Below are positions 1-64,000 of a stretch of DNA of 64,000 nt, piece after piece. Each line of letters opens with the position of its first letter. The first letter of the stretch is position 1. Under the pieces are notes generated by a model, which was not told the DNA's origin, made no database searches, and saw only the letters and a program-made list of their open reading frames with translations. This DNA is from Symbiodinium natans (Eukaryota; Sar; Dinophyceae; Suessiales; Symbiodiniaceae): positions 246,001 to 310,000 of the forward strand of contig CAJNDS010000446.1 in assembly GCA_905221605.1 (NCBI GenBank). Direction: 5' to 3'. A program made the translations under genes and the position numbers.

Positions 1-56
1 TAAAAACCCCTAAGCCCTAAACCCTAAACCCTAAACCCACCCTCCTCAAACGCCAG

Positions 57-1013
57 GGCGCCCTGGCCAAGCTCCTCGTCACCCTGCCGGGCTTCAAGCC
101 CGAACCGGGGCCAGCGCAGGCGCGATTTAAGGGTTTAGGGGTTTAGGGTTGAGGGGTTGGGGTTTGGGGGTTGGTTTAGGGGTTTAGGGTTCGGGGGTGT
201 AGGGGTTCAGGGGTTTAGGGGTTTAGGTGTATGATCTTGCTGCGATCCTGACTTGCCTTAGGGGGTAAGCCCTAAACCATGAACCCTAAACCCTAAACCC
301 TAAACCCCAAACCCCAAACCCCAAACCCCAAACCCTAAACCCTAAACCCTAAACCCCAAGACCCAAGACCCTAGACCCTGAACCCTCTTGGTTTTTTTTT
401 CAAGGCATATGTCATACAGAAGTTCGGTGTCCAAGCCAACCCCAGACCCCTGGGTCTAGATTTAGGGCATAAGGTTTTCCCATTCTCAAACATCAACCTT
501 GAGAAGGGTTTGGGGTTGAATTCGCGCTTTGGGTACTCCCAGCAGCCCTGAACTGGGTGGCGAAGGTGGAGGGTGTAGGAATTATGGCTTAGAGGTTCAG
601 CCCAAAACCCCTGAACCCTAAGCTCGATATCCCTTAAGGGCGCTCAAAGGTTCATCTTTCCCTTCACAGATATCTCAGCCGCTAAGACTGACTTTTCGGA
701 GCCGGAACATCCTAACCCTGAGCAGTTTAGCGTTCAGGGTTTATAAACCGTAGCACATAGGGTTTACTTAGGGCTCTAAAAGCCCACCCTAAAGCCTAAA
801 GCCTAAACCCTAAACCCTAAACCCTAACCCCTAAACCCTAGCCCTAAACCCTAAACCCTAAACCCTAAACTCTAAACCCTAAACCCTAAACCCTAAACCC
901 TAAATCCTAAACCCTAAACCCTAAACCCTAAACCCTACGCCTTGCAGGCCCCGAACTTCATGATGGGGATGATGGCCGGCTCGGCCCTCATGGGTTGGAA
1001 GCTCCTGCCTTGA
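57..1013 (+). CDS. Two exon islands, possible 3' end of a gene (57-119 and 948-1013)
   Basis: Island 57-119 follows a CAG and reads 21 codons (starts GALAKLLVTL), ending CAG before a GC donor. Island 948-1013 follows CTTGCAG and reads 21 codons (starts APNFMMGMMAG) to TGA at 1011-1013. Both are phase 0, so they can be joined. The candidate intron 120-947 opens with TTTAGGG-type sequence and closes with a CCCTAAA array. I do not recognise the product. The second island is hydrophobic and Met-rich, perhaps a C-terminal membrane segment. Another exon could lie between them. Confidence 0.42.
803..936 (+). repeat. CCCTAAA array
   Basis: About 19 near-perfect CCCTAAA units with a few changed bases. 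The array ends 11 bp before the acceptor of the 948-1013 island. Confidence 0.95.
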
Positions 1014-1624
1014 GGCACAAGGTTTAGGGTTTAGGGTTTAGGGTTTAGGATTCTGGATTTCAGTGTCTTAGGATTTTTAGGCTTTAGGGCTTGGGTGCCT
1101 TAACTTTTCATCCTCCATATAACAACCCGAAGTTCGAACTTGCATCCTGGCGCGCTGTACTCTGATGTCGGTAGTGTGGCTGGTTCCTATGGTTTTGATC
1201 GTGCGTTTGGGAAGTAGATGAAACAGGTGCCTTACTCTCATGCTCCCGTTACGCTAAACCCTAAACCCGAAACCCTAAACCCTAAACCCTAGACCCTAAA
1301 CCCTAAACCCTTAACCCTAAACCCTAAACCCTAAACCCGAAACCTTCGTATAAGTCTTCCATGCTGGGGTCCAAGGTGCCTCGGGACAGCAGCCTGGCAT
1401 GGGATGGAGGCCAAGCCTTACACCCTCGGAGTTTCGGGTTTGGGGTTTAGGGTTGAGGGTTTGGGGTTTAGGGTTTGGGGTTTAGGGGTTTAGGGTTTAG
1501 GGTTTAGGGTTTGGGGTAGGGTTGAGGGTTGAACCGAAGCGCAAGGATTTCGGGTTCAGCAGGGTGTCGGGTGAACCCTACCAGAGGTCTAGGAAACCCT
1601 AAGCCCGAATCCCTAAACCCTAAA

Positions 1625-1726
1625 CTGAGTAGCTGAGTGAGTACACTTGACACTTTTGGGATACTACAGTCCCCTATAGAACTGAAAGTGTACACTTTTT
1701 TGGGGCTTATGAACTCAGCAACTGAG
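1625..1726 (+). mobile_element. Introner-like element family A, copy 1
   Basis: A 102-bp element with terminal inverted repeats CTGAGTAGCTGAGT and ACTCAGCAACTGAG. A 4-bp direct repeat TAAA flanks it (1621-1624 and 1727-1730). The interior matches the copy at 33916-34018 closely, sharing GAGTACACTT and a near-identical stretch around TACACTTTTTTGGGGC. Here it sits in telomere-type sequence, so I cannot show that this copy acts as an intron. Confidence 0.85.
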
Positions 1727-1869
1727 TAAAGGCTTACATTGTTCGGGGGGGCTTCTGTCCAGCCTCCTCATCTGAATCCATCCTAAGGCCGCAAGCCCCA
1801 ACACCCGGAGTCCCTCATCCGCATCTCCCAGATTTCTCCAAACCCTGCGGTTTAGGCTTTGGGGCTTAG

Positions 1870-2007
1870 GGTTAGGGTTTAGGGTTTAGGGTTTAGGGTT
1901 TAGGGTTTAGGGTTTAGGGTTTAGGGTTTAGGGTTTAGGGTTCAGGGTTTAGGGTTTTAGGGTTTAGGGTTTAGGGTTTAGGGTTTAGGGTTTAGGGTTT
2001 AGGGTTA
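1870..2007 (+). repeat. TTTAGGG array
   Basis: About 19 TTTAGGG units with one TTCAGGG and one TTTTAGGG variant. The array ends 28 bp before the exon island at 2036. Confidence 0.95.
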
Positions 2008-2035
2008 GCCGGAAGCTCCCAAGCGGAGGCTGCAG

Positions 2036-2095
2036 ACTGAGAGCCTGCTCGGCTTGATGCTGGCCCCGACCTGCATCGACTCTGCGCTGTACAAG
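2036..2095 (+). CDS. Internal exon island, 20 codons
   Basis: Follows GGCTGCAG and reads 20 codons starting TESLLGLMLAP with mostly G/C third positions, ending AAG before GATGGG. That would be a GA donor, a class reported for dinoflagellate introns. Phase is 0 at both ends. It is flanked on both sides by TTTAGGG arrays. Product unknown. A chance open frame of this length cannot be excluded. Confidence 0.38.
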
Positions 2096-2611
2096 GATGG
2101 GTTTAGTTCAGGGTTTAGGGTTTAGGGTTTTTGGGTTTAGGGTTTAGGGTTTAGGGTTTAGGGTTTAGGGTTTAGGGCAAAGGGGGTAGTCGCGTGGTCC
2201 CACATTACGGACCCCTGATTTGGGGGAAACAGACTTATATGCCCCTTTCCAGATTCTACTCCAATCCCAGCGAAATCCAAGCCCGGAAACGGCTAAGCCC
2301 AGGTCCAGACACCCTAGGGGGGCCCTAAGTCCATGGTAAGAGGCCTTAAGTAGATCATGAAACCTGCTGAGGGGTTTGGGTTTAGGGATTTGGGTTTAAG
2401 GTTTAGGGTTTAGGGTCTAGGGTCTAGGGTTTAGGGTTTAGGGTTGAGGGTTTAGGGTTTAGGGTTCTCAAAACCTTCAGGCACAGAGGCCTTCTGAGTG
2501 GCAGAGCACTTTCGGAATATGCTGCCATGATTGTTGTTTCTTGGTTGTACTTTGAGGCGATGATGTGTGTTAGCTTTCCTTCTTTGTAGGGCATTCGAGG
2601 CATTCCTTCGT

Positions 2612-2714
2612 AGCTGAGTGGTACCCTTTTGACTTTTTGATTTCTGGATTCCCCTGTAAAAGTAAGTAACCCCAAGAAGGGCACCCTCAGTATGTGTCCT
2701 GGGCTACCAAGACT
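2612..2714 (+). mobile_element. Inverted-repeat element family D, degenerate copy
   Basis: Begins GCTGAGTGGTACCC and ends CTGGGCTACCAAG, with AAGTAAGTAACC near the centre. Related copies are at about 7503, 23727, 26990, 57893 and 59840. The ends are imperfect inverted repeats of the core AGCCCAGTGGTACC. Confidence 0.55.
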
Positions 2715-62876: not shown

Positions 62877-62940
62877 ACCCTAAACCCTAAACCCTAAACC
62901 CCTAAGAACCACAACAGTTCTAGGCTTGAAGTTGCCGCAG

Positions 62941-63009
62941 AACCTGGCGAACATTCTTGAGTCCAACTTCGCCAGCTATGGTCATCCCCATTTCTGCAGC
63001 AGGCCCTGT
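62941..63009 (+). CDS. Exon with Cys/His zinc-finger-like motif, part 1
   Basis: Follows AGTTGCCGCAG and reads NLANILESNFASYGHPHFCS, then RPC, before GTACAC. The pattern SxGHPxFCxxPC recalls the first half of Cys/His zinc-finger segments of the type C..PC...GxCxxGxxCxYCHxxH that I associate with alveolate proteins. The second half may be the exon at 63425. The donor choice and the join are not settled. Confidence 0.5.
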
Positions 63010-63105
63010 GTACACGTACTGACGCCTGGCTGGGTTTAGGGTTCAGGGTTCAGGGTTTAGGGTTCAGGGTTCAGGGTTTAGGGTTTAGGGTTTAGGGTTG
63101 AGGAG

Positions 63106-63319
63106 GCTTTGTGTTGAGCCCCTCTTTGGTAGGGCCCCTACTATACGGACAATCTTGCCGGTGCGATTAGGACCCACGACTGTTCGGGTTTGTCTGGAGG
63201 GGTCCCCTATCAAGACAAGCTTTGTGGTTGGTGCTGCTGAGCGACTTTGTACAAAGGGGAAGGGGAACATGGTCTCAAGAGGGTCTTACGTGCATGCAGG
63301 ACCGTGCGCATACATGCAG
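63106..63319 (+). CDS. Exon island, 71 codons, consensus donor
   Basis: After GAGGAG the frame reads LCVEPLFGRAPTIRTILPVR, then LGPTTVRVCLEGSPIKTSFV and KGNMVSRGSYVHAGPCAYMQ, ending CAG before GTAAGTA, the best donor in the window. The end (GSYVHAGPCAYM) resembles the HPHFCSRPC exon, so it may carry a related Cys/His half-motif. A next exon may start at 63382 (MHPDTADTP, stop in a telomere-type unit) or at 63425 in another phase. Confidence 0.55.
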
Positions 63320-63424
63320 GTAAGTATAGTTTTCCGACTGCAGCGGGCACGCACTCAACGCGTAATGTAAGGAGAGTACGAGATGCATCCGGACACCGCC
63401 GACACCCCAAACCCTTAAACCCAG

Positions 63425-63543
63425 TGGGCCATACCTTGCTTCAAGATGAGCTGAGGAAGGGTGGCGTGTGCCCGTCCGGGGCAGCTTGTGGCTATTGTCA
63501 CATGCAACATGAGTCCCATCCAATGAGGCCGGCCTTGGGTTGA
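63425..63543 (+). CDS. Terminal exon with Cys/His zinc-finger-like motif, part 2
   Basis: After AACCCAG (or CTTCAAG at 63445) the frame reads GHTLLQDELRKGGVCPSGAA, then CGYCHMQHESHPMRPALG, to TGA at 63541-63543. The arrangement CxxxxxCxxCHxxH with preceding Gly-Gly fits the second half of a CCCH-type motif. If joined to 62941-63009 it would complete one finger. The splice path is not proven. Likely nucleic-acid binding by analogy only. Confidence 0.52.
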
Positions 63544-63671
63544 GGTTTCGGGCACAGGCCCGAAACCCTGAACCCTAGAACTCTGCCATGCTCTGAATAG
63601 AGGGCGACTTCAGGTAGATAGAGGGTGGTTGGAGAAACAAAACCGCCTATACCTGAAGACGAAACCCTAAA

Positions 63672-63955
63672 CTCTAGGATATAGTTAGTAATATAGTAAT
63701 ATAGTAAGATAGTAATATAGTTATAGAGCAATATAGCAATGTAGTAGTATAGGAATATAGTAGTATAGGAATATAGTAATATACTCATATAGTCATCTAG
63801 TCATCTAGTCATCTAGTCATCAAGTCATATAGCAATATTGTACTATAGCAGTACAGCAATATAGCAATATAGTCATATAGCCATATCGTAATAAAGCAAT
63901 ATAGCAAAACAGCAATATCGTATTCTAATATCGTCATATAGCAATGTAGTAATAA
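63672..63955 (+). repeat. Degenerate ATATAGTA/ATATAGCA microsatellite
   Basis: Units of 8-10 bp such as AATATAGT, AGTCATCT and AGCAATAT fill nearly 300 bp with a clear period. No coding potential on the + strand; the reverse frame is Tyr/Leu/Ile repeats and is not called. Confidence 0.93.
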
Positions 63956-64000
63956 ACCTCGACCAGGGCCGACAAGCTCTTGCGGGTGATCCGAGCACAG

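Follow-up and report, generated by a model that had tools for sequence, protein, structure and literature searches.

Telomere-type repeats flank the small exons of UBE4B, the gene for ubiquitin conjugation factor E4, in a 64-kb stretch of the Symbiodinium natans genome (the window; positions 246,001 to 310,000 of contig CAJNDS010000446.1), and they do so mostly in one orientation: C-rich (CCCTAAA)n arrays before exons and G-rich (TTTAGGG)n arrays after them. This position and polarity hold in UBE4B, and a short-range excess of C-left/G-right array pairs is present elsewhere and genome-wide. S. natans is a single-celled dinoflagellate alga close to coral symbionts. G-rich exact heptamer arrays make up 9.7% of the window and C-rich ones 8.2%. 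Its left edge lies 246 kb into a contig of 1,797,874 bases, so that these telomere-type tandem repeats are internal.

Telomere-type arrays bracket many exons of UBE4B

Candidate plus-strand exons, hand-read between 13.1 and 31 kb and concatenated for protein search, match Ube4b from both Symbiodinium microadriaticum and Symbiodinium sp. CCMP2592, along with a Polarella glacialis protein. Two Ube4b-type proteins cover 99% of the concatenated exons, and the window exons closely match a predicted protein, P0018, from EukProt. Pfam PF10408 is found in UBE4B relatives, which run past both ends of the matched part; the concatenated exons gave no Pfam family and only one PDB chain (E 1.7), and no Pfam match came from whole frames in which stops were treated as X (two plus frames at 15.0–29.9 kb and three plus frames of L017, a stretch from another contig). 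With the Ube4b-type proteins and P0018 as tblastn queries, 52 exon pieces were placed by homology across the window, 48 from tblastn segments (two of them weak, at 17.3 bits) and four by eye (951, 8739, 46960 and 48604). The pieces at 8739, 28679 and 46960 are listed in the wrong frame; positions alone were used, and their brackets are unaffected.

The 51 introns between these pieces represent a very high intron density. A junction search that allowed GT, GC or GA donors and only AG acceptors, with small bonuses for AG|G, resolved the junctions of 30 out of 35 neighbouring exon pairs. Exons with both junctions resolved (n = 27) are 26–86 nt long. The donor is GC in 22 of the 30 resolved introns, GT in 4 and GA in 4; passages of PMC11453091 describe GC and GA donors as common in Symbiodiniaceae. 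AG precedes the donor in 19/30 and G follows the acceptor in 25/30, in a search that slightly favoured AG and G. The gene, with examples of its exons and arrays, is laid out as follows.

57–61874, plus strand: UBE4B, from concatenated hand-read exons, tblastn and the junction search
57–119, plus strand: exon GALAKLLVTLPGFKPEPGPAQ; C-rich array at 15–38 on the left, G-rich from 130 on the right
4776–4824, plus strand: C-rich (CCCTAAA)n array before the exon at 4843–4893
4843–4893, plus strand: exon VHFSRGLAGRSKASVES
4928–5070, plus strand: perfect 143-nt G-rich (TTTAGGG)n array after the exon at 4843–4893
8749–8775, plus strand: exon piece AKSANLMDQ, placed by eye against P0018; C-rich 8657–8717, G-rich 8811–8838 (it stands as 8739–8765 among the 52 pieces, 10 nt too far left, in the same bracket)
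16433–16480, plus strand: exon VIGGFLEEARFGDSEE; C-rich on the left, G-rich 16522–16564 on the right
16927–16983, plus strand: exon VEAAKSFVASEALLKDAAK; C-rich on the left, G-rich on the right
18882–18944, plus strand: G-rich array after the exon at 18798–18860
23139–23363, plus strand: long C-rich array before the exon at 23388–23438
28532–28619, plus strand: C-rich arrays before the exon at about 28679–28728
43079–43153, plus strand: exon EVLAFGAKAAWAPPAAVAAPLSDDE in a C-left/G-right bracket, inside a 21.7-kb UBE4B intron
60050–60103, plus strand: exon GMDTLIEIRRLKREGKEA; C-rich 59969–60012 on the left, G-rich 60135–60166 on the right
60673–60726, plus strand: exon LQRPAASSVAQDEQTTEG; C-rich on the left, G-rich 60743–60833 on the right

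Within 150 nt of the 52 pieces, the nearest array on the left is C-rich in 37, G-rich in 11 and absent in 4 (C versus G, P = 2.2e-4), and on the right it is G-rich in 38, C-rich in 5 and absent in 9 (P = 2.5e-7). Thirty pieces stand in a C/G bracket, 8 in G/G, 4 in C/C and none in G/C, and one or both sides are empty in 10. The exon at 18798–18860 is an exception, as a G-rich array (18737–18767) precedes it too. Array density has mirror-image peaks 50–75 nt from exons, reaching 0.45 for G-rich arrays after and 0.46 for C-rich arrays before them; mid-intron densities are 0.069 (G-rich) and 0.052 (C-rich), in a class that probably includes exons beyond the 52 pieces.

The arrays show the same polarity without reference to exons. 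About 205 array blocks of at least 14 repeat bases occur in the window, and the 100 gaps of 60–160 bp between blocks comprise 49 C-left/G-right, 16 of the reverse, 23 G/G and 12 C/C; orientation permutation gives an expectation of 24.9 for the first class, and 49 was reached in 0 of 20,000 permutations. Gaps of at least 300 bp (n = 40) show the opposite, with 22 G-left/C-right and 2 C-left/G-right, and head-to-head arrangements are rare, with G-to-C transitions of less than 30 bp in only 4 of 60. Exon pieces lie in 28 of the 49 C/G gaps of 60–160 bp (leaving 21 without exon support), in 9 of the 51 other gaps and in 0 of the 16 G/C gaps. Open-frame length did not separate C/G islands from other islands.

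A preliminary description of the window had named 16 places where a coding-looking island has C-rich arrays on its left and G-rich arrays on its right, and all 16 fall in such gaps. Its reading of the islands as exons stands for the 11 that we matched to protein relatives (57, 948, 4843, 8722, 16433–17003, 28645, 43073, 45574, 48593, 60050 and 60667, with 948, 8722 and 48593 matched by eye); the other five (35774, 42806, 52125, 52851 and 57192) had no protein support in our searches. It had also proposed that introns begin with TTTAGGG and end with CCCTAAA. The polarity does track introns, but the arrays are set back from donor and acceptor in most resolved introns: the first G-rich unit starts 2–60 nt after the donor in 20/30, and the last C-rich unit ends 9–51 nt before the acceptor in 18/30.

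We compared these positions with 2,000 shuffles in which arrays were shifted, reversed and relabelled inside each of the 30 resolved introns. The first 150 nt of introns hold 1098 G-rich bases against a shuffled mean of about 507 (reached in 1/2,000), and the last 150 nt hold 1319 C-rich bases against about 507 (0/2,000). Wrong-orientation bases near donors number 234, below the shuffled mean of about 507 (P = 0.01). Because right-orientation bases exceed the shuffles more than twofold, arrays are enriched there and wrong ones have not merely been lost.

Other contigs show the same short-range excess. We pooled 15 stretches (L014–L028), each from a different contig and together 146,990 bases long (5,000 of them N), with uneven array density (about 9–26% in five, about 5–7% in three, one of them half N, and about 2% or less in seven). 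Their 60–160-bp gaps are C/G in 40 of 93, against 23.0 expected, and 0 of 5,000 permutations reach 40. A codon score trained on the window exons and on an intron-poor gene of the window has a median of 6.41 in these 40 C/G islands and of 3.98–4.65 in the other 53 (P = 2.7e-5). This supports, independently of homology, the view that such islands tend to be exons on other contigs as well. Across the whole assembly (759,417,921 bases in 2,543 contigs), pairs of array 14-mers at 70–100 nt number 46,443 in C-then-G and 26,016 in G-then-C order, counts to which long arrays contribute, whichever the order, through their overlapping registers; at 400–430 nt the two orders are equal (136,865 versus 138,014). 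The C–island–G bracket was absent from the viral and prokaryote contigs scanned. Short arrays are present in nine stretches of viral contigs.

A splicing role and competing origins

At the homology-placed exons, arrays of a given strand orientation lie close to splice sites more often than chance allows, as would be expected of splicing enhancers. We give about even chances to the reading that they are strand-polarised elements that help to define tiny exons, most of them with GC–AG sites, a reading drawn from sequence. In the pre-mRNA, (UUUAGGG)n would follow the donor and (CCCUAAA)n would precede the acceptor, mostly 25–100 nt from the exon pieces. G-rich arrays could enhance splicing from within the intron, close to the donor, when bound by an RNA protein that recognises G-runs or UAGGG, and C-rich arrays could supply a C-rich tract together with repeated CUAAA(C) sites resembling branch points. 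Each intron end would work independently of the other, local slippage would enlarge the arrays, and the wrong orientation would be lost near donors. Of the explanations in the preliminary description we thus favour the expansion of repeats that may aid splicing, in a non-structural sense.

We advance more tentatively, at rather less than even confidence, the broader proposal that the telomere repeat has been co-opted as a genome-wide, strand-polarised splicing code, with exon recognition needing proteins that read telomere-type RNA; equally tentative is the assignment within such a code, in which C-rich arrays would signal that a tiny exon with weak GC–AG sites lies ahead, and G-rich arrays that it has been passed. 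The chromosome-end repeat would be linked to exon–intron architecture across a genome, giving a testable idea for how dinoflagellates recognize tiny exons with non-canonical donors. The strand-symmetric signal could aid exon finding in dinoflagellate genomes, which are hard to annotate. It also cautions against taking every internal telomere repeat in a dinoflagellate as the trace of a chromosome fusion or end. In the portions of the open-licence literature covered by our search, including passages of PMC11453091, PMC11508785, PMC7789003, PMC6395649, PMC7023079, PMC8045281, PMC9087856 and PMC4932749, there is no report of telomere-type arrays positioned according to exon polarity.

Several observations weigh against a splicing role. 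Some exon pieces have no array within 150 nt (9/52 on the right, 4/52 on the left) or the wrong one (11/52 on the left, 5/52 on the right), and wrong-orientation bases near acceptors (420) are not significantly below shuffles (P = 0.28). Array length and substitution pattern are alike near exons and elsewhere, and exons with both arrays show no difference in length from the others (P = 0.82). A kinase search gave 133 matches (129 of 900 candidates scored), the scored ones being long open frames, and 18 of the 133, taken for partial domains, served as a contrast. No array lies within about 350–415 nt on 31 of the 36 flanks of these 18 loci, and the five arrays present there do not follow the polarity (two in the predicted orientation, three opposite), so some genes can do without arrays. 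Finally, human hnRNP A1 (motif UAGGGA/U) represses exons when bound just downstream of the donor, according to passages of PMC4932749, the opposite of what a plain comparison with hnRNP A1 would need to show.

The arrays might also be functionless, if G-skew near donors and C-skew near acceptors seeds heptamers that slippage then grows; we regard this passive origin as possible, though less likely than a splicing role, and we rate its companion idea, that wrong-orientation arrays are purged as carriers of cryptic AG or GT sites, no differently. Non-telomere bases are indeed skewed likewise, by +0.12 to +0.16 up to 150 nt from donors and by −0.23 to −0.25 up to 100 nt from acceptors (on a 40-exon list), and array length and purity are the same near and far from exons. 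Local variant arrays of period 8 (8802–9029) and period 9 (16756–16898 and 59170–59294) look like products of slippage, not of telomerase, which indicates slippage as the way arrays grow. Skew in the non-telomere bases could itself be decayed array, however, and it is permitted by function and passive seeding alike. Right-orientation density near exons is several-fold higher than mid-intron, so purging of wrong arrays is insufficient alone and seeding would have to supply the remainder.

We consider it improbable that the arrays are birth marks of introns that arose with telomeric ends, whether by break repair that involved telomere healing and joining, or from an introner-like element with telomeric terminal repeats. 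The AG before 19/30 donors and the G after 25/30 acceptors resemble short target duplications, intron density is very high, and PMC11453091 and PMC7215372 describe introners in dinoflagellates and the insertion of telomeric repeats during break repair in mammals, respectively. Within introns, nevertheless, a G-rich array at the 5′ end is not coupled to a C-rich one at the 3′ end, differing sequence separates arrays from junctions in most introns, the short G-to-C transitions expected of joined ends are as rare as noted above, and the 33 local matches among array-masked introns are simple or scattered repeats, none of them common to the introns at large. The lack of coupling, the rarity of such transitions and the stretches between junction and array also count against the preliminary suggestion that small telomere-healed fragments had been ligated together.

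The same description had envisaged an inverted repeat folding donor to acceptor. The arrays of one intron are complementary, and inverted repeats at intron ends of Amoebophrya introners have been proposed to pair in this way (passages of PMC7789003), but both complementary arrays occur in the same intron no more often than chance predicts (25/11/11/4, P = 1). We folded 14 introns of at most 1,300 nt with both neighbouring introns resolved, in segments of at most 2,000 nt. Summed pair probability is 171 + 82 across exons and 33 across introns, nearly all of it in one intron; among the seven folded introns with both arrays only that one pairs appreciably (33; another reaches 0.2). Pairing between such arrays might just as well loop exons out, and we hold a donor–acceptor stem to be very improbable. 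The independence of the two intron ends fits the separate donor and acceptor elements of the splicing reading. With the stem, the joining of healed fragments and a shared introner sequence set aside, two readings are left: function at each splice site, or passive seeding combined with purging.

Other features of the window

Two regions inside UBE4B introns carry further coding sequence.

33033–34803, plus strand: intron-poor gene with two long open frames, lying within a UBE4B intron of 5.5 kb
37670–59341, plus strand: UBE4B intron of 21,672 nt, holding further plus-strand exon pieces at 38391–49594

The intron-poor gene matched no Pfam family, and no telomere array of at least 10 nt occurs between 31994 and 34865. 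Arrays accompany the finely split gene and not the long-frame genes in this small sample. Between the two long frames sits a repeat of about 100 bp (33919–34018), 87% identical to a copy at 1628–1726.

P0018 fuses the exon pieces at 38391–49594 to the N-terminal part of UBE4B, and other relatives resume at 59343; the pieces may represent a nested gene, an alternative end or an annotation fusion. Some pieces inside 37670–59341 encode a cysteine-rich, zinc-ribbon-like part (WQCCACGREWRAES...ECCPFAPK). A partly palindromic repeat family of about 70–100 bp, 73–81% alike in longer matches, recurs in introns (40565–40658, 45246–45314, 48053–48153 and 49316–49417), and a second dispersed repeat, at most about 100 bp long and about 88–89% identical, lies at 52369–52467, 6172–6269 and 12762–12817.

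Long poly-C tracts at 13070–13096 and 61780–61800 stand directly before the exons at 13097 and 61806, in places where one would otherwise expect a C-rich telomere array to lie closer. Rfam and tRNA scans gave no matches. A degenerate TAGTAATA-type tandem array lies at the right end of the window (63686–63954), and 7,242 of the 8,000 bases downstream (310001–318000 of the contig) are N.

Comparison with known systems

As RNA, TTTAGGG contains UAGGG, like the hnRNP A1 motif UAGGGA/U, and passages of PMC4932749 report human hnRNP A1 peaks enriched downstream of donors. Repression near donors in human differs from the putative enhancer role proposed here.

Interstitial telomeric sequences share with the window arrays the presence of telomere-type tandem repeats at internal sites. 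Those of primates and rodents are described as insertions at repaired breaks (PMC7215372), and in Karenia internal signals are rare by fluorescence in situ hybridization (passages of PMC6395649). Here, by contrast, arrays peak 25–100 nt from exon pieces with transcriptional polarity.

Introners of dinoflagellates and Amoebophrya have in common with the window gene repeats tied to intron ends in an inverted arrangement, and non-canonical donors are shared by introner systems and the window gene. Passages of PMC7789003 describe Amoebophrya introners with inverted repeats of 8–20 nt and direct repeats of 3–5 nt at their boundaries. The 30 resolved introns have no inverted repeats at their very termini, as their arrays lie mostly further in, and an all-versus-all comparison of array-masked window introns gave no common introner sequence. 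Unlike introners, the resolved introns vary in their junction-adjacent bases, and what recurs is set-back heptamer arrays.

G-run intronic enhancers act after donors, and polypyrimidine and branch-point tracts before acceptors; the position and strand polarity of the arrays match the needs of both. Unlike these intronic splicing enhancers and branch-point tracts, the elements proposed here would be built from telomere-type arrays, tens to more than 100 nt long.

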